Shown piece after piece: positions 1,902 to 13,706 of a stretch of 64,000 nucleotides of DNA. The stretch comes from Archangium violaceum. Its GTDB lineage: Bacteria; Myxococcota; Myxococcia; Myxococcales; Myxococcaceae. The position numbers were made by a program, and so were the translations under genes. The notes beneath the pieces were generated by a model. That model was not told the origin of the DNA. It saw nothing but the letters and a program-made list of their open reading frames with translations, and did no database searches. Numbering within the stretch: position 1 is the stretch's first letter; each line of letters begins with the position of its first letter. Location of the stretch: assembly GCF_016887565.1 (NCBI RefSeq), contig NZ_CP069396.1, forward strand, positions 8,228,001-8,292,000, read 5' to 3'.

Positions 1902-3899
1902 TTACACCCCCAGCAACAGGGCGAGTGCCCCGGGCTGGCCCGGTTCGAGGGCGAACAGCAGCCGCTCGCGCAGCACCTTCAGCTCCTCGTAGCCCATCTC
2001 CACCGCGCGGCCATGGGCGACCGGATCCCTCAGGCGCTCCTTGGCCTGGATGACGAAGTCCGCCAGCACGTCCAGCAGGCGCCCAGGCAGGGGGTAGCGC
2101 TCCGTGAGGAAGGCCAGGAAGAGGTGGAGGTAGGGCTCCTCGCGCCGCTGAAGGACGCGCGCCACCTCGCCCATGGAGGGCGGACGGCCGGGCCGCTCGG
2201 GATCGAAGGCGGCGGCGAAGTTGTCGAAGTACTCCACCTTCCGGCCGCGCTTCTCGCGCGTGGCCGCCTGGAGGAAGTCCTTGAGCTGGCCCCGGGCGTC
2301 CAGCCACTGGCGGAAGCGCTCCACGAAGAGCGTGTACAGCGCGCGCTCCAGCGCTCCCGCGAACAGCACCGCTACCGCCGCCGCGGGCAGATCCGTGTAG
2401 AGGGCCTTCTGGTACGTGCGCTCCGCCACCATCATCGCCTGCAGCAGCGGCGGCGGGCACGTGGCCAGTGCCTTGCCCAGCCCCCGCTCCACGTTCTCGC
2501 GGGCCTTGGCGTCGATCTCCGTCTCGCGCTGCTCGAGCTCCTCGCGGGTGCGCCGGGCCTGCTCCGCGCGCGCCGACGCCTGCGCCGCCCTCGCCTCCTC
2601 CTCCGCCCGGCGAGCCTTCTCCTCGGCCTGGGCCTGGGCCGCCCGGAGCGTCTCCAGCTCACGGCGCAGGGCCTCCAGCTCGCTCTCACGGGCCACGAAG
2701 CGCCGGCGCAAGGCATCGGACTCGGCCTTCGCCGCCTCCACCTGCGCCTCCACGTTGGCCTGCAACTGCGTGCGCCACGCCTCGCGGCGCCGCGTCAGCT
2801 CCAGGCCCCGCCGCGCCTCGGGCTCGTCGGGGTCCATCTCGAGCGCCGCCTGGAAGGACTTCTCGGCGGACTCGAAGTCCCCCTCCTCCGCCGACAGGTG
2901 ACCCAGGTCCACCTGCAGCTGAGGCCCCAGCTTGCCCTGGGACTCCGCGTGCCCCGAGGCCCGCGCCAGTGCCTCACGCGCCTCCTGACGCCGTCCCAGC
3001 AACCGCAGCGCGCGGCCCCGCGTGGCCTCCAGCTCGAAGATGAAGCCCTTGTAGTGCTCGCCCGTCGCCGCCTCCGCGACCGCCAGGTGCTCCAGCGCGT
3101 CCTCCGGGCGATTGCGCAGGTTGGCGATCTGCGCGAACAGGAGCCGATCCTCCGCCGTGGGCACGGAGCCCAGCCGCTCGGTGATGAGCTGATCGCACAG
3201 CCCCGGCTCCCCGGCGAGCTGCGCCGCGTACGCCATGTGCCCCAGTTGCTCCGGTTGCAGCTCGCCCGCCGCGCGCTGCTCCTTCCACAGCCCGAGCGCG
3301 GGCGCGGCCTGCCCCTGCATGAGGAGGCAGTCGGCCAGCAGCCCCTTCGCCTCGGACTGCACCTCCGCGGGCACATCGCCCTCGCGGAGGCTCCGGCACA
3401 TGTTGGCCGCCTCCTCGTAGCGGCCCAGCTTCGCGCGCACGCGCGCCAGCAGCATCCTCGCCTCGGGCCCGGCGCCTCCGGCCACCGCCCGCGCGAAGAT
3501 GCGCTCGGAGGCCGCGTAGCGCTCCAGCCGCGCCAGCGCATAGCCGTACTGGGTGAGCAGATCCGGCCCGAGCCCCTTGAGCTCGAGCTGCCCCATCAGC
3601 GCCACCGCCTCCTCGAAGCGGTCCTGGCGGATGAGCACCAGCCCGACACGGGCCGTCAGATCCCTGTTGCCCGGGAAGCGCGACAGGCCCTCGCGGTAGG
3701 CGGACGCCGCCGCGTCGTACTCGCCCCGGCCCAGGTGCACGTCCCCCAGCGCCGCCGGCACCTCGGGCCGACCCAGGCTGTCATGGGCCGCCAGGTCGCG
3801 GAGGATCTTCTCGGCCTCGCTGAACTCCTCGCGGGCCAGCAGGGTGCGAGCCCTCTCGTAGAGCTTGACGGCCTTGTGCTTGGGCAGCGTGGAGCTCAC
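1902..3899 (-). CDS. TPR and coiled-coil protein of unknown function
   Basis: A 665-residue soluble protein. Residues 1-370 are tetratricopeptide-like helical repeats (many A-x-x-Y/L-x-x-G-R-x-x-E-A units). About 375-485 is an Ala/Glu/Arg-rich coiled coil. The rest is a helical C-terminal domain I do not recognise. There is no signal peptide or membrane segment, so it is probably a cytoplasmic scaffold. The start is GTG and overlaps the stop of the GH57 gene by 4 nt (GTGA), which implies translational coupling and a role linked to that enzyme (inference). Confidence 0.85.
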   Translation of the reverse strand: MSSTLPKHKAVKLYERARTLLAREEFSEAEKILRDLAAHDSLGRPEVPAALGDVHLGRGEYDAAASAYREGLSRFPGNRDLTARVGLVLIRQDRFEEAVALMGQLELKGLGPDLLTQYGYALARLERYAASERIFARAVAGGAGPEARMLLARVRAKLGRYEEAANMCRSLREGDVPAEVQSEAKGLLADCLLMQGQAAPALGLWKEQRAAGELQPEQLGHMAYAAQLAGEPGLCDQLITERLGSVPTAEDRLLFAQIANLRNRPEDALEHLAVAEAATGEHYKGFIFELEATRGRALRLLGRRQEAREALARASGHAESQGKLGPQLQVDLGHLSAEEGDFESAEKSFQAALEMDPDEPEARRGLELTRRREAWRTQLQANVEAQVEAAKAESDALRRRFVARESELEALRRELETLRAAQAQAEEKARRAEEEARAAQASARAEQARRTREELEQRETEIDAKARENVERGLGKALATCPPPLLQAMMVAERTYQKALYTDLPAAAVAVLFAGALERALYTLFVERFRQWLDARGQLKDFLQAATREKRGRKVEYFDNFAAAFDPERPGRPPSMGEVARVLQRREEPYLHLFLAFLTERYPLPGRLLDVLADFVIQAKERLRDPVAHGRAVEMGYEELKVLRERLLFALEPGQPGALALLLGV

Positions 3900-5482
3900 G
3901 GTCGGTAGACCCGGTAGTCTATCTCGGGAAAGAGGTTGTTCTTGCCCTCGATGTGGGACAACCAGCCCTCATCGATGTTCCCATCGCGGATCTGGTCGTG
4001 CAGGCGCTGGAAGCGCAGGATGTGCTCCTTGGTGCGTCGCACGGCGTAGTCCACCATGGTTCCCGTCTTCATGATGAACGCCCAGTCCGACGATTGCGCC
4101 AGCAGGAGCTCGCGCGCGGCCTGGTTGAGTGCCCGCCGCTGGAGCGTGGAGGCATCCGGGTAGTCCTTGGCCAGGTCCGCCATCTGGCGGGCGCAGTGGT
4201 GGAGGTGCCGGTAGATCCAATCGTTGGAGCCATCCAGCCACATGTTGGCGTAGCCGCCCGCGCCCCAGGAACTCAGGGGCGGGGTGGCCACCTGGTTCTC
4301 CGGGTTCTCGGCCAGGTCATCCGAGGCCGTCACCAGCCGGAAGGTCTTCTGGTCGAAGGCCACCTTGCGGATGAGGGCGTCGAGGAACCACGGCCCCTCG
4401 AACCACCAATGGCCGTAGAGCTCGGCGTCATAGGGGGCCACCACCACCGGCTTGCGGCTCCCCATCTTCCCCGCGAGCCACTCGAACTGCTTCTCCCGGT
4501 TGAAGAGGAAGTTGCCCGCGTGGGTGGCGGCGCGCTCGCGCGCGACGTCCGGATCATAGGGCTGCTTGTCCTGCGTCTTGCCGGTGATCCGGTAGTACTT
4601 GAAGCCGGTGTTCTTGCGATCCCCGGTGGGCTGGATGAAGGGCCGGATGTAGTCCAGGTCCAGGTCCCAGCCGATGTCCCGGTAGAACTCGCGGTAGACG
4701 GGGTCGCCGGGGTAGCCGTGCTCGGAGCTCCACACCTGCTGGCTGCTCTCGGGATCCCTCGCGTACGCGGCCACGCCCGCCTCCGTGTAGATGGGCGCGA
4801 AGGGGCCATGCAGCGGCCGGGGCGTGGCGTCCATGACACCGTGCGTGTCCACGAAGAAGTAGCGGATGCGCTCGGCCGACAGGTACTTCTCCACCCCGGG
4901 GAAGTAGCCGCACTCGGCCAGCCAGATGCCCGGCGCGTCCCGGCCGAAGGTGAGCCGGTAGTGGTTGGCGGCCACGGAGACCTGGGCGCGCACCGCCTCG
5001 GGCGTCTGCTGCATCAACGGCAGGAAGCCGTGGGTGGCGTTGCAGGTGATGATCTCCAGATGTCCGGCGTCCTGGAGCCGGCGGAAGGCGCCCACCAGGT
5101 CGCGCTTGTAGCGCTCGCGGAAGGCGCTCCGCAGGGACTCGAAGTGGTCCCGGTAGAAGTGGGCCAGCCGGCCGAAGACCGGGTCGTTCCGGGTGCGGTG
5201 CACCTCGCGAGAGCCCAGCTCGCAGAGCTGATCCAACTTGTGCGCGTAGCGCCCCATGAGCAGCTCGTCACGCAGCATGGTGACGAGCGTGGGCGTGAGC
5301 GTCATCGTCACGCGGAAGGGGACGTTCTCCTCCGCCAGCCGATCGAACACGAGCAGCAGCGGGAGATACGTCTCGGAGATGGCCTCGTAGAGCCAGTCCT
5401 CCTCGAGGAAGTCCTCGTATTCGGGATGCCGGACGAACGGCAGATGCGCGTGGAGGACGATGGCGAGCGAGCCGATGCTCAT
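3896..5482 (-). CDS. GH57 1,4-alpha-glucan branching enzyme
   Basis: A 528-residue glycoside hydrolase family 57 protein of the branching-enzyme type, which makes alpha-1,6 branches in glycogen-like glucans. It shows the N-terminal HAHLPFVRHPE motif, the nucleophile Glu190 in GIWLAECGYFPG and the acid/base Asp352 in APYDAELYGHWWFEGP. The C-terminal helical (DUF1957-type) half is complete, ending after the KDYPDAST and SSDWAF region. Length matches the family (about 525-560). An AGGGGAA ribosome site precedes the ATG. It starts 9 nt after the DUF4912 gene and its stop overlaps the TPR gene start, so the three form one transcription unit. Confidence 0.94.
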   Translation of the reverse strand: MSIGSLAIVLHAHLPFVRHPEYEDFLEEDWLYEAISETYLPLLLVFDRLAEENVPFRVTMTLTPTLVTMLRDELLMGRYAHKLDQLCELGSREVHRTRNDPVFGRLAHFYRDHFESLRSAFRERYKRDLVGAFRRLQDAGHLEIITCNATHGFLPLMQQTPEAVRAQVSVAANHYRLTFGRDAPGIWLAECGYFPGVEKYLSAERIRYFFVDTHGVMDATPRPLHGPFAPIYTEAGVAAYARDPESSQQVWSSEHGYPGDPVYREFYRDIGWDLDLDYIRPFIQPTGDRKNTGFKYYRITGKTQDKQPYDPDVARERAATHAGNFLFNREKQFEWLAGKMGSRKPVVVAPYDAELYGHWWFEGPWFLDALIRKVAFDQKTFRLVTASDDLAENPENQVATPPLSSWGAGGYANMWLDGSNDWIYRHLHHCARQMADLAKDYPDASTLQRRALNQAARELLLAQSSDWAFIMKTGTMVDYAVRRTKEHILRFQRLHDQIRDGNIDEGWLSHIEGKNNLFPEIDYRVYRP

Positions 5483-5491
5483 GTCATTCCC

Positions 5492-7129
5492 CTATCGGCC
5501 CTGACCCGAGGAGGACGGGCGCGACCACGTCCACGACTCGGAGACAGCCCCCGCCGGGCCATACGCCCAGACCCACTGCTCGGAGGACCCGCCCGCGCCG
5601 CCCTGGGACCACGTCCGCTGATCCGAGGACCCACCCGGACCGTGCGACCACACCCGCTGATCCGAGGACCCGCCCGGACCCTGGGACCATGTCCGCTGCT
5701 CGGAGGACGCCCCGACGCCGTACGACCAGGCCCGCTGCTCGGAGGAGCCCACCATGTCCCGCAGCCCCGCCCACTGCTCGGAGGAGCCCTCGTGGCGGCG
5801 GCTGACGCTCAGGTACTCCTGCTCGGGCGCACCCTCGCCCGGCGCGCCGGGACCACCGGGACCGACACGCTCCCGGTGCCGCTCGGGGATGTCCTCGAAA
5901 CCACCGCTGCCCGGCAGGGCCACGCGGCGCCAGGTGATGTACTCGCGCTCCTCGACGTCCGCGGTGCGGGTGGGCGCGGTGGCGGCCACCGCCTCCACGC
6001 TGGTCTTCGGGGCGACGACAGGCGGCATGCGCAGGAGGCGCACCGAGGTGTCCTCGGACGGGCCCGCGGGCGGCAGGAAGATGCGGTTGGAGGAGTGCCC
6101 GATGCGGCGCGAGCGGCCGGAAACACCGACGAAGTGGGCCTCCACGCGGTAGGGCCTGCCCGGGGGCAGCCCGTGGATGTAGTAGCTGCGCGACTCGAGC
6201 GCGACGTCGATCACCCGCACCAGCACGTCGCTGTCGTCGTAGACGCGCAACACGGCGCGCGGCGACACCAGCCCATCCAGGGCACGGCGCCGGGCCTCGG
6301 CACTGAAATCCCAGCAGACGAAGAGCGTGTGCGGGTCGCGCGGCATCAGCAGCGCCGTGTCGTCCTCGTAGTCCATCGGCAGCTCGCCGAGCCGCTCGTC
6401 ATAATCCGGCGAACCGAGCGCCTCGACGGGCCGGCGGCGCTGCGACTCGGTGAGGTGGTGGCGGAAGGCCTCCTGCTCACCCGCGATGCGCGCCACGAAG
6501 AAGCCCTCCACCAGCGGCTCCGCGGCGTGCTGCGCCACATGGACGTGCTGCTCCGCATGGGCGGGTGGCTCCGAGTGGACGGGCGGGTCCACCAGGGCGG
6601 GCGGCGGGGACTCGGGGGCCGGCGGCTTCGTGAGGGTGGGCTCGTCGTCGATCGACGACCGGCCTCCCGCGGGCTTGGGCTTGGGCGGGAAGTTGACCAC
6701 CTCGGCGGGCCGGGGCGTGGGGTGGACGGGAGTCTTCTCGTCGTCGTCCCCGGGCAGGGCGCGCTCCGGGGCGATGGGCTGCGCCGGACGCTCCTCGGGC
6801 GTGCCGGTGCGCGAGGCCGCGGAGACGGCGCCGGGGACCTTGCGGGCGCCCTTCACCCTCTCCCGGGTCTCCTTCACCTTCTCCCGGGCCCGTTCCACCT
6901 TCTCCTGGACCTGCTTCCTGACGGACGCCCTGACGGACTGCCCCGCCGTCCCGTCCGCCTTCGCGGTCCCCGGCTCCTCCTCGCCCGCGAGCTTCGCGAG
7001 CCCCGGCACCAGCCGGGCCAGTGCATCGAGGAGGTCCTTCTTGGTCTTGAGCTTGCTATGCCCGCGTCCCAGATGCTTGCGCGCGAGCTCCCGCAGGTAT
7101 TCCACCGTGACGCTCTTGAGGTCGGCCAT
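5492..7129 (-). CDS. DUF4912 protein with C-terminal 13-residue repeats
   Basis: A 545-residue protein. Residues 4-40 (VEYLRELARKHLGRG and a KTKKDLLDAL stretch) resemble a SAP/Rho-N-like helical domain. A long Pro/Glu/Arg-rich linker follows. A DUF4912 domain lies at about 240-370, with LFVCWDFS and the ESRSYYIHGLPPGRPYRVE strand region, an immunoglobulin-like carbohydrate-associated fold in my reading of the family. The last 95 residues are seven 13-residue repeats. I chose the ATG at 7129; an in-frame GTG at 7183 would add 18 residues. It is the first gene of the unit with the branching enzyme, so a role in glucan metabolism or surface polysaccharide is plausible (inference). Confidence 0.85.
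   Translation of the reverse strand: MADLKSVTVEYLRELARKHLGRGHSKLKTKKDLLDALARLVPGLAKLAGEEEPGTAKADGTAGQSVRASVRKQVQEKVERAREKVKETRERVKGARKVPGAVSAASRTGTPEERPAQPIAPERALPGDDDEKTPVHPTPRPAEVVNFPPKPKPAGGRSSIDDEPTLTKPPAPESPPPALVDPPVHSEPPAHAEQHVHVAQHAAEPLVEGFFVARIAGEQEAFRHHLTESQRRRPVEALGSPDYDERLGELPMDYEDDTALLMPRDPHTLFVCWDFSAEARRRALDGLVSPRAVLRVYDDSDVLVRVIDVALESRSYYIHGLPPGRPYRVEAHFVGVSGRSRRIGHSSNRIFLPPAGPSEDTSVRLLRMPPVVAPKTSVEAVAATAPTRTADVEEREYITWRRVALPGSGGFEDIPERHRERVGPGGPGAPGEGAPEQEYLSVSRRHEGSSEQWAGLRDMVGSSEQRAWSYGVGASSEQRTWSQGPGGSSDQRVWSHGPGGSSDQRTWSQGGAGGSSEQWVWAYGPAGAVSESWTWSRPSSSGQGR
5500..5793 (-). repeat. Coding 39-nt tandem repeat (SS-E/D-Q-R-x-W-S units)
   Basis: Seven consecutive units of about 39 nt encode variants of G-S-S-E/D-Q-R/W-x-W-S-x-G-P-G at the C terminus of the DUF4912 protein. 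The reading frame is kept in every unit. The two outermost units are the most diverged, as expected for an expanding and contracting array. Confidence 0.85.
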
Positions 7130-7266
7130 AGGCGGATTCCGGCTTAGGTCGACAGGGCCGCGAGGGTCAACGAACGATTTCACTTCTGTTCGTGGTCGTA
7201 CCCCGGGTGGAGTCGGGGGACGGACGGTGACAAGTCGGGAGCCGCCTCTGTATCCTCCGGTCCGCC

Positions 7267-9585
7267 TTGAGCGACCTGCCCAGACTCCTGCTGTGCAGCT
7301 TCGATGTCATCCCCGGCCCGTCTGGATCCTCGCGCCGGGTGACCGAGTATTTGAAGGCATTGCCCGATCGGTTCTCCGTGGTGGTGCTCTCGGTCAAGAC
7401 GCCGGACCATTCGCACATCGAGAAATACCAGGGCGCGCGACTGCTCCGGGTGCCGGTGGGCTCGGGGGACATCGCCTCGCGCATCCAGGCCTTCGAGCGC
7501 GCCGTGCGGCGTCAACTGGAGAGCGAGGAGTACGCGCTCGTCCACTTCACGGACCCCTTCGGCGGCTATGCCCTGTGCGAGCTCAAGGGGGACTACGGCT
7601 ACCGCCTCGTCTACGAGGCCCAGGGCTTCCCCTCCCAGGAGCTGCGCTACACGCACCCGCAGCTCGAGGGGGACAAGAAGTTCCTCTCCAAGGCCCGCCG
7701 GCAGGAGCTGTTCTGCCTGATGAACGCGGACCTGGTCATCACCGGCTCCCCCTCCACGCGCTCCTTCATCCACTCGCTGGGCGTGGGCCAGGAGTCGGTG
7801 CGCGTGGTGCGCGCGCCGGTGGACCTGGGACCCTATGTGCCCGAAGCGCTCGGGGCGCCGGATGGCAGTGGCCCCATGCGGATGATGTACCTGGGCAGCC
7901 AGGTGGCCTGGCAGGGACTGGCGGGACTGCTGCGGGGACTCGCACTGGCCGTGCGCGAGGTGGACGTGCGGCTCACGCTCGTGGGCCCGCGTCACCCGGA
8001 CTGGCAGCCCCATCTGGAGGATCTCGTCTCCGAGCTGGGCCTCGGCAAGCACGTCGAGTTCCAACCCCCCGTGGCCCATGACGACGTAGCCAAGGTGCTC
8101 GCGCTGGCGGACGTGGGCGTGCTGCCGCTCGATGACGTGGACCGCAACCGCGTGCAGGGCGGCGCGCTCTCCAAGGTGTCCGAGTACCTCGCCGCCGGCC
8201 GCCCGGTGCTCGCCGCCGACCTGCCCGTGGCCCGCGAGCTCGTCTCCTCCGCCGCCGGCGTCTTCTATACCCCGGGGGACCCCCAGTCCCTCGCGGACCG
8301 CATCATCGAGCTGGCCCGCGACGTGCCGCGGCGCGTCGCCCTCGGCAAGCAGGCCCGGACCTACGCCGAGCAGTGGCTGGACGCGGGGCTCATCCGCGGC
8401 CAGCTCCTGGACATCTATGACGGCCTGCTCGGGAAGCGGGCGGTGGCGTCGGGCACCACCTCCGAGCCCGAGATCCACCCGACGATGATGACGGGCACGC
8501 CCACCAACCGCGTCCTCGCGCTCGAGGGAACGGTCAGCGCGGAGCCGGAGCCCGCCCCCCAGGCCCCTCGCGAGCCGCCACCCGCCAGCGAGCACATCCC
8601 GGACACGGATCCGAACCACGCCCCCGCGCGCGAGGAGTTGCCGCTCGTCACGGGCCACATCCTCCAGGAACAGGAGCCGGGACTCGACACGCGCCTGGTG
8701 AAGACCGAGCCCGCCTCCGCGCGGCCCGACATCCCCGTGGTGATGGGGCTTCCCCTGCGCGAGCCCCCCTCCGCATTGGAGAGCGCGCTCACCGAGCAGG
8801 AGGTGCGCTCGACCGAGCCCCCCGTGGTGCTGGGCCTCCCCCTGCGCGAGCCCCCCTCACCCGCTCCCGCCCCCGCCAGCGAACGCCCACGTCCACTCCT
8901 CTCCGAGGAGAGTCCCGTGCCGACTCCGCCCGCCCTCCCGCCCCGCGCGAGCCTGCTCACCCGAACGGTGTCCTCCGAGAACCGGCCGGCCACCGCGCCC
9001 GAAGCCGCACCGGCGCGGCCTCCCGCGCTGCCTCCCCGGAAGGACGAGCGCCCCGCGTCCAAACCCGCCGAGCCTCCCGTGCTCCAGCCCGTGGAGACAC
9101 CGCCGCGTCTGCCGCCACGTCCGTCGCTCTCCATCCCCCCGCTGCCTCCACGGGCCCGGCCGCCCAGCGGCTCCCGTCCCATGCCTCCACCGCTCCTCAC
9201 GCCGGTGGAAGCCCCCGCCGTTCCCCCCCGGGTCGCGCGTGCCCCAGCCCCGGCCGAAGAGCCCGAGGAGATCTCCGAGGCCGAGGCCGAGGAGATCCAG
9301 GAGGTAGAAGGTTCTCCGACACCTCCTCACGCTCACCCACTGGAGGAGCCAGAGGAGATCAGCAGCGCGGAGATCCACGAGGCCGAGACGGAGGCGCCGC
9401 CGCGAGAGCCGCCGGAGTCGCGGTTGAACCCGTGGTTCGCCCAGCTCGCCCACGGGTACTGCCCTCCCGAGGGTACCCACTTCGCCCGACATACACCCCC
9501 CACCACCATGCCCGGACGTGACGAGGAGCCCGCTCCCCCACCCGCTCCGAAGGCCCAGGGGAGTGTGCGCGGCAAGCCCTCATGA
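7267..9585 (+). CDS. GT4-type glycosyltransferase with long proline-rich tail
   Basis: A 772-residue protein. Residues 1-395 form a GT-B, family 4-like transferase: an N-terminal FDVIPGPSGSSRR nucleotide-sugar fold start, and a C-terminal Rossmann half with GPRHPDWQ, the HVEFQPPVAHDDV segment and the SKVSEYLAAGRPVLAADLP donor-binding region near residue 300. Residues 395-772 are a Pro/Glu/Ala-rich low-complexity tail with two GLPLREPPS repeats, five PPLPPR-like elements and a conserved-looking final segment LNPWFAQLAHGYCPPEG. The start is TTG with no strong ribosome site. It is divergent from the DUF4912/branching-enzyme unit. The acceptor is unknown. The tail looks like a protein-interaction region (inference). 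Confidence 0.82.
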   Translation: MSDLPRLLLCSFDVIPGPSGSSRRVTEYLKALPDRFSVVVLSVKTPDHSHIEKYQGARLLRVPVGSGDIASRIQAFERAVRRQLESEEYALVHFTDPFGGYALCELKGDYGYRLVYEAQGFPSQELRYTHPQLEGDKKFLSKARRQELFCLMNADLVITGSPSTRSFIHSLGVGQESVRVVRAPVDLGPYVPEALGAPDGSGPMRMMYLGSQVAWQGLAGLLRGLALAVREVDVRLTLVGPRHPDWQPHLEDLVSELGLGKHVEFQPPVAHDDVAKVLALADVGVLPLDDVDRNRVQGGALSKVSEYLAAGRPVLAADLPVARELVSSAAGVFYTPGDPQSLADRIIELARDVPRRVALGKQARTYAEQWLDAGLIRGQLLDIYDGLLGKRAVASGTTSEPEIHPTMMTGTPTNRVLALEGTVSAEPEPAPQAPREPPPASEHIPDTDPNHAPAREELPLVTGHILQEQEPGLDTRLVKTEPASARPDIPVVMGLPLREPPSALESALTEQEVRSTEPPVVLGLPLREPPSPAPAPASERPRPLLSEESPVPTPPALPPRASLLTRTVSSENRPATAPEAAPARPPALPPRKDERPASKPAEPPVLQPVETPPRLPPRPSLSIPPLPPRARPPSGSRPMPPPLLTPVEAPAVPPRVARAPAPAEEPEEISEAEAEEIQEVEGSPTPPHAHPLEEPEEISSAEIHEAETEAPPREPPESRLNPWFAQLAHGYCPPEGTHFARHTPPTTMPGRDEEPAPPPAPKAQGSVRGKPS

Positions 9586-9611: not shown

Positions 9612-9637
9612 AGCTTGGCATGGAAACTTTCCAAGCT
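9612..9637. promoter_or_regulatory. Inverted repeat upstream of the AglZ-like gene
   Basis: Perfect 7-bp arms AGCTTGG and CCAAGCT flank a 12-nt centre that itself contains GGAAA-C-TTTCC. The site lies 26 nt after the glycosyltransferase stop and about 60 nt before the AglZ-like start. No T-run follows, so an operator is at least as likely as a terminator. Confidence 0.35.
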
Positions 9638-9698
9638 CCGCCGCGCGTGCCTAGGATGTGCCGGTTTTCATTGCACTTTTCTTGGGTCAAAGGGCTGC

Positions 9699-12600
9699 AT
9701 GGAGCGCCGGGTCCTCATCGTCGAAAGCCAGAACGACTTCGCCCTCAGCATGGCCACCGTGCTCAAGAGCGCGGGTTACCAAACGGCCATGGCGGCAACT
9801 GCCGCCGACGCACAGCGTGAGATGGAGAAGCGCCGGCCGGATCTCATCGTGGTCCGGGCCGAGTTGCCGGATCAGTCCGGCTTCACCCTCTGTGGGCAGA
9901 TCAAGAAGGGCAAGTGGGGGCAGAACCTCCGCGTCCTGCTGCTGTCCTCGGACACCGGAGTGGAGGGGCTCAACCAGCACCGCCAGACGCCGGGTGCCGC
10001 GGATGGCTATCTCCTCATTCCCTTCGAGATGGGCGAGCTCGCCTCGATGAGCGTCGGCATCGTGCCGCCGGAGGAAGACGCACCGCAGCAGGCCGCGGGC
10101 CCGGGTGACGGTCCGCCGGCCATACCGCCGCCGCTCAAGGGTGCGCCCAATCCCGCTGGCGGCCCGCCCCGGCTGCCCAAGCGCGAGCGCCGCAGCGCCA
10201 TCACCGAGGAGGATCGCGGCTTCCTGGAGCGCTCCTTCCAGTCCATCGCGGACCGCAAGGCGGAGCTGCTCGCCGAGTCGCGTCAGCTCAAGCGCCCGCC
10301 TCCGCGGCGTGACCTGATGGGCACGCCCGAGGGCAAGGTGCAGCTGCTGCGCGACGAGCTGAAGACGCGCGAGGCGCAGATCGCCCGCATCTCGGAGATC
10401 TGGAACGTCCGCGAGCGCGAGCTGCTGTCCGTCGAGGACCGGCTCCACGAGAAGGACGTGGAGCTGCAGGGCCTGAAGATGCAGGTGGATGACCTGCTGC
10501 GGCGCTTCAACGAGGCGCAGCAGGGCATGCTGCAGAAGGAGCGCGAGCACGGCGCGACCGTGGACGACCTGCTCCTGCAGAAGTTCTCCGCGGAGAAGGA
10601 TCTCATCGAGGTGGTGGCCTCCAAGGAGAAGGACATCAACGTCCTTCGCCGCGAGGTGTCCAGCCGCGATGACGAGCTGTCGCGCCGCGCGCAGGAGCTG
10701 GAGCACGCGCGCGAGGAGTACGACAAGCTCGAGAAGCACCTGGGCATCGTCACCCTCGAGTTCGAGGTCAAGGAGCAGAAGCTCACCGAGACGGTGCAGG
10801 CGCACGAGGCCGAGCTGGCCCGCCGCCACCAGCGCATCGAGGGTCTCGAGGGCGAGCTGGCCCGCACCATCAGCGAGCGTGATCAGCACTACGCCGAGCT
10901 GAATGGGGAGATCCAGGCGCTGCAGGAGAGGCTGGCGCAGACGGAGCAGGAGCGCGACACCACCGTGCGCAACCTCGAGGCGCGCGCCACCGCGGCCGAG
11001 GAGCACGGCGCCCAGGCCGACGCGGAGATCGTCCGCATCACGGACGAGCGCAACGCGCTGGAGGCGCGGCTCAACGAGCAGATCGCCGGCCTGGAGTCGG
11101 ATCTGGCCCGCATGACGGGCGAGCGCGACCAGCTGCAGCAGGACAAGGACGCGCTGGAGAGCGATCTCACCCAGCGACTGGAGGAGCGCGAGGCCAAGGT
11201 CGCCACGCTCGAGCGCGAGCTGCAGGAGACCATCGCCCGCAACGAGCACCACGAGGCCGAGCTCAACGCCAGCATCCAGCAGCAGATGGAGCGCGTCGGT
11301 GAGCTGGAGGGCGAGGTCGAGGCCGTCAAGGCCCACCTGGCCGACCGCGAGGCCGAGCTGACCGGCGAGGTCGAGGCGCTCACCCAGGCTCGCAACGAGC
11401 TGGAGGCGGCCAAGGACGCGATGGAGGCCGACCTCAACGGCCAGCTCCAGGCGCTCAACGAGGCCGTCGCCGACCGCGACACGCAGATCTCCAACCTGCG
11501 CGGCGAGCTGGACGCCACCACCCAGACGCTCACCGAGACGCAGAGCACGCTCGCGCAGACCGAGGAGACGCTCGCCACCACCCGCGGCGAGCTGGACGCC
11601 ACCTCGCAGACGCTGGCCGAGACGCAGGGCACGCTCACCGAGACGCAGGCCACCCTGGCCGACACGCAGAACCGCCTCGCCGTGACCGAGGAGACCCTCG
11701 CGAGCACCCGTGGCGAGCTCGAGGCCACCGCCCAGACGCTGGCCGAGACGCAGGGCACTCTCGCCGACACGCAGGCCACCCTGGCCGACACGCAGGGCCG
11801 CCTCGCCGCGACCGAGGAGACCCTGGCGAGCACCCGGGGCGAGCTCGAGGCCACCACCCAGACGCTCACCGAGACGCAGGCCACCCTGGCCGACACGCAG
11901 GGCCGGCTCACCGCGACCGAGGAGGCCCTGGCCTCCACCCGGGGCGAGCTCGAGGCCACCTCGCAGACGCTGGCCGACACGCAAAACACGCTCGCGCAGA
12001 CCGAGGAGACGCTCTCCTCCACCCGCGGCGAGCTGGAGGCCACCTCCCAGTCCCTCGTCGAGACGCAGGGGCTGCTGTCGCGCACCGAGGAGGCCCTGGC
12101 CTCCACCCGCGGCGAGCTGGAGGCCGCGCAGCAGGAGATCACCCGCGTCAACGGTGTCCTGCAGGAGACCGAGGCCCTCAAGGCCGCCATGGAGGAGGAG
12201 CTCTCCGAGCAGCTCGGCCAGGTGCGCAACGAGCTGGCCGAGACGCAGGGAGGCCTCGCCGCCACGCGCGACGCGCTCGCCAGCGAACAGGCCGCCCACG
12301 CGCAGACGCAGCAGCAGGCGTCCGCCACCCAGGCGGAGCTGGAGGCCCAGCTCGCCCAGGCGCGCGATCAGGGCCAGGAGCTCGAGGAGCAGCTTTTCCT
12401 CACCAAGCAGGAGCTGGGCAGCCGGGTGTCCGAGGTCACCCAGCTCAGCTCGCAGCTGTCGCAGTCCGAGGACGAGCGTCACCGGCTGGAGGAGCGCTTC
12501 AACGCGCTCACCGCGGAGTCGCAGCGCCGCATCGAGTTCCTGGAGAAGGACTCCGCCAGCAAGCAGCGCGAGCTGTCGGACACCTTCGAGAAGCTCAACA

Positions 12601-13706
12601 CGATGACGCAGGAGAAGGAGCGTCAGCGCGAGACCCTCTCCCGCGAGCTGACGGCGCGCAACGAGCAGCTCAAGGCGCTGGACGCCCGCCGGCAGCAGGA
12701 CGCGGAGCAGGCGAAGCGGCAGCTGGACGAGCTCACCCGTCAGGCCGGCGCGCTCAACTCGGAGCTGGACAACGCGCGCAAGCAGATCGCCGCGCGGGAA
12801 GAGCAGCTGCGCACCGCGGGCAACGCCCAGACGAAGCTGCAGTCCGAGCGTGACGGGTTCGCCGCGCAGCTCGGCGATGCCCAGGCGCAGCTCCAGGCGC
12901 TCCAGCAGGCCCAGGCGCAGGAGCGCGCCGAGGCGAAGCGGGCGTCGGACGAGCTGGCGAAGAAGCTGGCCCAGGCCGAGGCCCGTATCGCGCAGGCCAA
13001 CCAGGAGGCCCAGGCCCGCGTGGCCGAGGCCGACGGGAAGGTGAAGGAGGCGCAGACGCAGCTCACCGCCCGCGCGAAGAAGATCCAGGAGCTGGAGCTG
13101 GCGGTGGAGAACGCGGCGGGAGTGAAGGCGCGCGTGGAGAAGGATCTCAACGCGAAGCTGGCCGCCGCGGACGCCAAGGCCAACGAGGCCGCGACGAAGC
13201 TGGCCGCCGCCGCCAAGGAGCGCAAGGAGCTGGAGGCGCGGCAGCAGAAGGAGCTCGAGGAAGTGGCCGCCCGTCAGAAGGCGGAGCTGGAGCGCCGCGA
13301 CGCCCTGAAGGCCCAGGAGATCGCCCGCCTGCAGCAGTCGGTGCAGGAGAAGAGCAAGGCCCTCAAGGTCGCCGAGCTGGAGCTGGCCCGCTACAAGACG
13401 AAGTCGCCCGTGTCCTCTCCGGGGACCCCGGCCGCCAAGGCGGGTGCCGCGAAGGCCGCTCCGGCCGAGGAGGACGAGAGCCTCGTCAGCACGCAGCTCA
13501 ACCCCGTCACGCCCGCGGCTCCGGCTCCGGCCCGCGCGGCCGCGCGTCCGGCCGCGTCGAAGAACGCCGTGAAGCGTTCCGCGGCGCCTCCGCCCGTCGA
13601 GGAGGTCTCCGAGCGCACCGTGGTGATGCAGATTCCGCAGGAGCCGGCGGCGGCCTCGGACGAGGCCGACTGGACGTCGCTCGTGGACGAGCTGGACAAG
13701 TCCTGA
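9699..13706 (+). CDS. aglZ: AglZ-like pseudo-receiver/coiled-coil protein
   Basis: A 1335-residue protein with a receiver-like fold at residues 1-125, a Pro-rich linker, and then about 1050 residues of nearly unbroken coiled coil. It ends in a Pro/Ala-rich tail closing with DWTSLVDELDKS. This is the architecture of Myxococcus AglZ, a filament-forming protein of the gliding-motility (A-motility) focal adhesions that binds the small GTPase MglA. In the receiver the phospho-acceptor position is Arg53 (IVVRAEL, where active receivers have Asp), so it is a pseudo-receiver. I chose the ATG at 9699, preceded by AAAGGG; a longer in-frame start at 9615 adds 28 residues unlike a receiver. Alternative: a longer relative of FrzS. 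Confidence 0.78.
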   Translation: MERRVLIVESQNDFALSMATVLKSAGYQTAMAATAADAQREMEKRRPDLIVVRAELPDQSGFTLCGQIKKGKWGQNLRVLLLSSDTGVEGLNQHRQTPGAADGYLLIPFEMGELASMSVGIVPPEEDAPQQAAGPGDGPPAIPPPLKGAPNPAGGPPRLPKRERRSAITEEDRGFLERSFQSIADRKAELLAESRQLKRPPPRRDLMGTPEGKVQLLRDELKTREAQIARISEIWNVRERELLSVEDRLHEKDVELQGLKMQVDDLLRRFNEAQQGMLQKEREHGATVDDLLLQKFSAEKDLIEVVASKEKDINVLRREVSSRDDELSRRAQELEHAREEYDKLEKHLGIVTLEFEVKEQKLTETVQAHEAELARRHQRIEGLEGELARTISERDQHYAELNGEIQALQERLAQTEQERDTTVRNLEARATAAEEHGAQADAEIVRITDERNALEARLNEQIAGLESDLARMTGERDQLQQDKDALESDLTQRLEEREAKVATLERELQETIARNEHHEAELNASIQQQMERVGELEGEVEAVKAHLADREAELTGEVEALTQARNELEAAKDAMEADLNGQLQALNEAVADRDTQISNLRGELDATTQTLTETQSTLAQTEETLATTRGELDATSQTLAETQGTLTETQATLADTQNRLAVTEETLASTRGELEATAQTLAETQGTLADTQATLADTQGRLAATEETLASTRGELEATTQTLTETQATLADTQGRLTATEEALASTRGELEATSQTLADTQNTLAQTEETLSSTRGELEATSQSLVETQGLLSRTEEALASTRGELEAAQQEITRVNGVLQETEALKAAMEEELSEQLGQVRNELAETQGGLAATRDALASEQAAHAQTQQQASATQAELEAQLAQARDQGQELEEQLFLTKQELGSRVSEVTQLSSQLSQSEDERHRLEERFNALTAESQRRIEFLEKDSASKQRELSDTFEKLNTMTQEKERQRETLSRELTARNEQLKALDARRQQDAEQAKRQLDELTRQAGALNSELDNARKQIAAREEQLRTAGNAQTKLQSERDGFAAQLGDAQAQLQALQQAQAQERAEAKRASDELAKKLAQAEARIAQANQEAQARVAEADGKVKEAQTQLTARAKKIQELELAVENAAGVKARVEKDLNAKLAAADAKANEAATKLAAAAKERKELEARQQKELEEVAARQKAELERRDALKAQEIARLQQSVQEKSKALKVAELELARYKTKSPVSSPGTPAAKAGAAKAAPAEEDESLVSTQLNPVTPAAPAPARAAARPAASKNAVKRSAAPPPVEEVSERTVVMQIPQEPAAASDEADWTSLVDELDKS
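11515..12130 (+). repeat. Coding repeats in the AglZ-like coiled coil
   Basis: About residues 606-810 of the AglZ-like protein consist of near-identical blocks built from TLAETQ, TLADTQ, EETLASTRGELEAT and similar units, with 21- and 63-nt-like periodicity at the DNA level. They are rich in Thr rather than charged residues, unlike the flanking coiled coil. Confidence 0.75.

Follow-up and report, generated by a model that had tools for sequence, protein, structure and literature searches.

A tandem short-motif array at the C-terminus of an Archangium violaceum DUF4912 protein encoded beside a GH57 enzyme, and its possible role as a docking tail

The DUF4912 gene and its neighbours

The window analysed here is a stretch of 64,000 nucleotides from Archangium violaceum (NCBI RefSeq assembly GCF_016887565.1, contig NZ_CP069396.1, positions 8,228,001 to 8,292,000 of the forward strand), and all coordinates below are counted from its first nucleotide. 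It holds a gene for a DUF4912 protein of 545 aa (5492..7129 (-)) that starts with an ATG at 7129, with a GTG at 7183 as an alternative start, and ends with a stop codon at 5492-5494 (-); homologues share the MxDLKSVTV-type N-terminus of the protein. The N-terminal helical segment (7010..7123 (-)) is Rho_N-like through homologue matches only: Rho_N gave no Pfam match at E <= 1 in the window protein, which we do not place in that family, and among six proteins scanned the sole match above the cut-off was in the homologue L147 (1.4e-7), with matches below the cut-off in L061, L030, L087 and L086. The DUF4912 domain (6047..6370 (-); aa 254-361) belongs to PF16258 (63.8 bits against a cut-off of 29.4; E 2.3e-17). 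By profile and by model it looks like an FnIII-like beta sandwich: comparison with a fibronectin profile gave 3.3e-6, with no single stretch passing alone, and the domain model, of modest confidence, matched 1wf5 with a Z of 9.4 (rmsd 2.8; 95 aligned), a value only moderately above the level of unrelated models. The best Foldseek E for this model was 2.1e-4, and the fold-search matches listed cover residues 207-356 within the full-length model. Between domain and tail lies a conserved linker, EEREYITWRRVALPGSGGFEDIPERHRER (5867..5953 (-)); an N-flank element, EYLSVSRRHE (5789..5818 (-)), precedes the first core motif of the tail, as it does in other genera too, and the protein ends in SSSGQGR (5495..5515 (-)), similar to the SGxGR termini seen in several other genera.

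Directly downstream of the DUF4912 gene lies, by Pfam, a GH57 / BE_C enzyme of branching-enzyme type (3896..5482 (-)), followed on the same strand by genes for a TPR protein (1902-3899) and a DegP-like protease. Both GH57 and BE_C domains are present, the best solved relative is 2b5d (7.6e-174), and in the alignment with 2b5d the WLAECGY Glu and the AP[YF]DAEL Asp, which we take to be the catalytic residues, are both conserved. The exact activity of the enzyme is unproven, because its scores lie far under the cut-offs of the NCBIfam branching-enzyme equivalogs (322 against 1000 bits and 305.6 against 920 bits). Divergent from these genes are a GT4-like glycosyltransferase gene (7267..9585 (+)), whose product has a long Pro-rich tail (8500-9585 (+)) with a repeated stretch of type PVV[ML]GLPLREPPS, and a gene for a protein of 1363 aa with a receiver and a long coiled coil (9615-13706 (+)), which we take to recall AglZ by its length. 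Among solved structures, the receiver is closest to FrzS (2gkg, 5.9e-10); an Arg in PDLIVVRAELP seemingly occupies the site of the phospho-accepting Asp, so that this domain is perhaps a pseudo-receiver. Internal tandem repeats of 126, 105, 84 and 42 bp lie in the coiled-coil gene at 11533-12125 (+).

Within the phylum, 127 of 195 genomes have PF16258, and DUF4912 homologues occur in 70 of 96 genomes of the family. Among the larger loci, which were the best matches of the search rather than a random draw, DUF4912 and GH57 were both present in 14/17 and the TPR gene in 7/17, so the DUF4912-GH57 pair is the conserved core of the locus and the TPR gene is not. Two of the larger loci lacking the pair (L122, L124) are on contigs that end soon after GH57, and the third (L125) has no DUF4912 match. 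GH57 was also found in 23 of 24 outgroup loci, again best matches of the search, within about 1.5 kb of flank, the miss being L139. A loss of DUF4912 in G021 was considered and rejected, as the GH57 contig stops about 425 bp past GH57 and the absence is a contig end. One further homologue beside GH57, L123 (G051; 29% identity), has a long tail in which several LPSS/LPGS stretches stand in place of G[AS]S[DE]. To our knowledge, no function has been assigned to DUF4912, and the only mention of it in the literature searched was a table row in a cotton transcriptome; among the titles and abstract openings retrieved on Myxococcus glycogen, GH57 and repeated linear motifs, none concerned this DUF4912 protein.

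The repeat array and its copy number

The C-terminus of the DUF4912 protein is a tandem array spanning 5516-5788 (-). It had been described, at 5500-5793, as seven uninterrupted 13-residue repeats of the form GSS-E/D-Q-R-x-W-S-x-GPG, a sound observation that needs small corrections. We counted six clear units with [GA]SS[ED]Q, five of them of 13 aa: GSSEQWAGLRDMV (unit 1; 5750..5788 (-), the first GSSEQ starting at 5788), GSSEQRAWSYGVG (unit 2; 5711..5749 (-)), ASSEQRTWSQGPG (unit 3; 5672..5710 (-)), GSSDQRVWSHGPG (unit 4; 5633..5671 (-)), the 14-aa GSSDQRTWSQGGAG (unit 5; 5591..5632 (-)) and GSSEQWVWAYGPA (unit 6; 5552..5590 (-)). The seventh, GAVSESWTWSRP (5516..5551 (-)), is decayed. Of the proposed form, R-x-W-S is restricted to units 2-5 and GPG to units 3 and 4, and unit 1 has the core without the W-S half. 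TRF reported a period of 39 at 5607-5753 and of 78 at 5562-5746. Residue identity of the tail at lag 13 was 38/85 (0.447), a value that none of 10,000 shuffles reached at lags 5 to 40 (best 0.328).

Searches with the tail found repeats of its type only at DUF4912 loci at the levels used, with one borderline exception. The tail query matched the DUF4912 gene in its own 13.2-Mb genome, where the other four matches were weak (E 0.65 to 9.4), and 12 of the 13 matches listed at E <= 0.01 in the 96 family genomes were at DUF4912 loci, the exception being G043:C37 (0.0097). A query of the 15-residue type had matches in 32 of 92 genomes at E <= 1e-6; read by eye, all were at DUF4912 loci or on a GH57-bearing fragment (G018). 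No plasmid homologue was found with L198 as query at E <= 1e-3.

Copy number, which had been suggested to vary between strains, does vary between related species. A sister genome (G004; 92% identical) has exactly one 39-bp unit fewer than the window, at unit 4, and the tails of the 70 family homologues, all of which were read, hold 0 to 19 core motifs (for L068 the final 120 residues of the tail; contig ends truncate L025 and L053 in the tail and L059 at the N-terminus). Contigs of three assemblies (G018, G021 and G030, with L025, L122 and L053) stop in or near the DUF4912 array, and copy numbers from fragmented assemblies may therefore be unreliable. Two or more G[AGS]S[DE] motifs, with a shuffle p <= 0.002, were found in 60/70 family tails (g1, 6/6; g5, 15/15; g19, 25/27; g6, 4/4; g7, 6/7; g4, 2/2; g8, 1/1; g20, 1/1). 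Only 4/36 outgroup tails passed the same test (L191, L196, L198 and L202), two of them with 11 motifs, and 26/36 had no motif at all.

Five family homologues (in G043, G044, G045, G047 and G048) are motif-free, and GH57 is adjacent in all five, from which it follows that the core function of the gene pair is probably independent of the tail, the tail being an add-on. The original prediction had named relatives without such a tail but with the same operon function as the finding that would speak against it, and these five homologues supply that finding in part. A second kind of DUF4912 protein (L145, L146 and L198, from G141, G136 and G143, and L202 from G188) carries an additional region behind the domain, and its array consists of GASE-type motifs spaced about 8 apart; L145, with 8 motifs, and L146, with 11, are further members of this second clade and have GH57 nearby, and G143 also encodes an array-free DUF4912 protein (L155).

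Motif core, unit history and selection

What stays constant across the family tails is G[AS]S[DE] as the core, in many cases with a Q after it. The commonest spacing is 13 in Archangium (14/30), 14 in g5, 15 in g19 (among whose members are a Pyxidicoccus and a Myxococcus record), 19 in g7 and g8, and 26 in g6, and it is 8 in the separate DUF4912 clade of L198 and L202; other spacings are present in every group. Because the core is kept while the commonest spacing shifts with the clade, a linear motif fits the tails better than one repeat fold. The array shows what is expected of a multivalent linear motif in that its core is under constraint while spacing and copy number differ between tails. 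Most Archangium and g5/g19 units carry a Trp or Tyr, the position of which also shifts with the clade: Trp at +7 follows 19/38 Archangium cores, 0/266 g19 cores and 1/199 g5 cores.

On a DUF4912 domain tree with 54 members, the presence of an array (at least four motifs) needs at least seven changes, six of them forced by well-supported branches, so that arrays were gained or lost several times; the clade with 8-residue spacing is separate at 100/99 and includes an array-free member (L204). Since some of the changes may be losses and resolution within the family is poor, the tree does not give a firm count of separate expansions; the 8-residue clade and the family, at least, are distinct.

The motif is single and near the C-terminus in the simplest motif-bearing family member, and the last copy runs directly into the C-terminus in the g2, g8 and g20 proteins and in 3/7 g7 proteins. 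When Archangium units were compared with this single-copy terminal element, flank identity was 0.200, as high as in 0/5000 shuffles (best 0.150), although the reverse control was not clean, the g5/g19 flank after the core also lying above its shuffles at a lower identity of 0.083. A YLxxxxRxx element stands before 148/199 g5, 191/266 g19 and 22/31 g7 cores, and it also stands ahead of the initial core of each of the six Archangium tails. The simplest history would be that of one ancestral element, different stretches of which were multiplied in different lineages.

Quantification of substitution in 12 close pairs revealed a dN of 0.019 and a dS of 0.272 in motif codons (dN/dS 0.071), compared with a dN/dS of 0.342 and a dS of 0.256 in the rest of the tail; 0/2000 random masks were as low, MAFFT anchoring on motifs may lower motif dN, and the close pairs share branches. 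In the 9/12 pairs in which the regions could be cut, dN/dS was 0.24 for the domain and 0.49 for the N-terminal linker. Sliding the motif mask raised the ratio at all shifts from -9 to +12; shifts of -1 to -3 stayed low (0.08-0.10), an effect of the likewise conserved residue at -3 (97% in W-type and Y-type pairs alike). In one pair (L012/L015), with few changes to count, the motif ratio reached 1.0. Constraint peaks at G[AS]S[DE] and at -3, not at the aromatic. The Ser at +2, which belongs to the motif definition itself, was kept in 96-100% in close pairs.

Possible roles of the tail

Weighing these observations, we give an even chance to the reading that the array is a mostly disordered, multivalent docking tail made of one short linear motif, with a partner in alpha-glucan metabolism. 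The motif would be approximately R/G-x-x-G-[AS]-S-[DE]-(Q), and several lineages would have multiplied it in tandem together with flanks of differing length; Archangium units would consist of the motif with a C-terminal flank (xxW[ST]xxP, 13 aa), and many g5, g19 and g7 units would have their flank on the N-terminal side instead (YLxxxxRxx; spacing 14, 15 and 19). Purifying selection would hold the motif while unequal exchange or slippage alters its copy number. Each motif may bind one shared partner, in which case the tail would gather enzyme on the growing alpha-glucan with an avidity set by copy number. Our best guess at the partner is the adjacent GH57 enzyme, because its gene is the constant neighbour, and our second guess is the DUF4912 FnIII-like domain of another copy. 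The TPR protein was also tried as a reader of the motif and was rejected: it is found in fewer than half of the larger loci and is absent from the L133 locus, the genome of which has 19 motifs. It speaks against a docking tail that the five family homologues and most outgroup tails are motif-free and yet keep GH57, and that the Archangium tail is predicted to form beta strands.

The motif-free relatives that keep the gene pair, together with the labile copy number and the fact that Archangium units are recognisably alike in DNA, would also be accommodated by near-neutral expansion of a GC-rich disordered tail through slippage or unequal exchange, the shared motif then reflecting recent duplication and homogenisation. 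We consider this unlikely, though a serious candidate, as the motif combines its low dN/dS with a dS no lower than that of the remaining tail, and as the same core has been multiplied with different flanks across clades, including the separate 8-residue clade. The predicted strands raise the alternative of an ordered beta structure in which each unit supplies a strand, such as a sheet or an amyloid-like assembly module. AF2 drew such strands in units 2-7 of the window protein (pLDDT 56-75, residues 461-540); a Pyxidicoccus tail, however, was modelled as coil (pLDDT about 33-51), both alignments held four sequences only, spacing differs between clades, and AF2 reportedly over-predicts beta-solenoids for repeats (PMC11795689). 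From the models a disordered Archangium tail seems the likelier state, and we regard the ordered structure as very improbable.

The Trp and Ser/Gly pattern of the units had been proposed to bind glycans or a partner. The partner half of this proposal fits our preferred docking role, while direct binding of alpha-glucan by aromatics, tethering the protein to glycogen, strikes us as rather improbable, even though the gene adjoins GH57 and GT4-like genes and an aromatic is found in most Archangium and g5/g19 units. The case for Trp as the glycan binder suffers from the near-complete lack of Trp at +7 in g5 and g19 (198/199 and 266/266 cores without it, respectively); moreover, the aromatic position varies by clade, constraint peaks elsewhere, and the tail alone matched 0 families at E <= 5 in Pfam, the library scanned, which speaks against the known carbohydrate-binding repeats though less so against a type not yet described. 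The Tyr of g5/g19 units could in principle act as the glycan binder instead. A last alternative, which we rate as highly improbable, is that alpha-glucan is covalently attached to, or primed on, the serines of G[AS]S[DE]. The well-kept Ser at +2 and the adjacent GT4-like and GH57 genes are compatible with it, as is the statement, in the review PMC11046441, that glycogenin homologues were not found in glycogen-accumulating bacteria; but the same review has a bacterial glycogen synthase priming itself, the A. violaceum genome has one GT5 match elsewhere, and motif-free relatives retain the gene pair. If true, the protein would be a bacterial multi-site counterpart of glycogenin in which copy number sets the chains grown per protein, with the linked GT4-like enzyme extending them and GH57 branching them.

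On our preferred reading of a docking tail, DUF4912, which lies beside GH57 in most loci examined, gains a small testable handle, as a peptide of a few units should fish out the partner; the family also offers a natural series of 0 to 19 motifs in which motif number can be set against enzyme clustering or glucan structure. According to PMC6791715 and PMC2875238, Myxococcus xanthus builds up glycogen late in stationary phase or early in development and loses it again before sporulation. If the gene pair acts on this glycogen, a scaffold of the proposed kind could matter there.

Among known systems, the window protein shares with the DUF4912 family (PF16258) its domain and a GH57 linkage that recurs across the phylum, but the Pfam model covers the domain only, the tail array is in no Pfam model, and 32/36 outgroup tails fail the array test. 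CW/GW repeats are aromatic glucan- or choline-binding repeats, and the window tail resembles them in having short repeats with aromatics near a glucan enzyme; it differs in lacking a Pfam match up to E 5 and in that its aromatic is not at a conserved position. Short linear motifs repeated in tandem in disordered tails form a general class. The window tail departs from this class in that the Archangium copy is modelled as strands and its motif has no known reader, and agrees with it in the constrained core, the free spacing, the labile copy number and the coil predicted for Pyxidicoccus.
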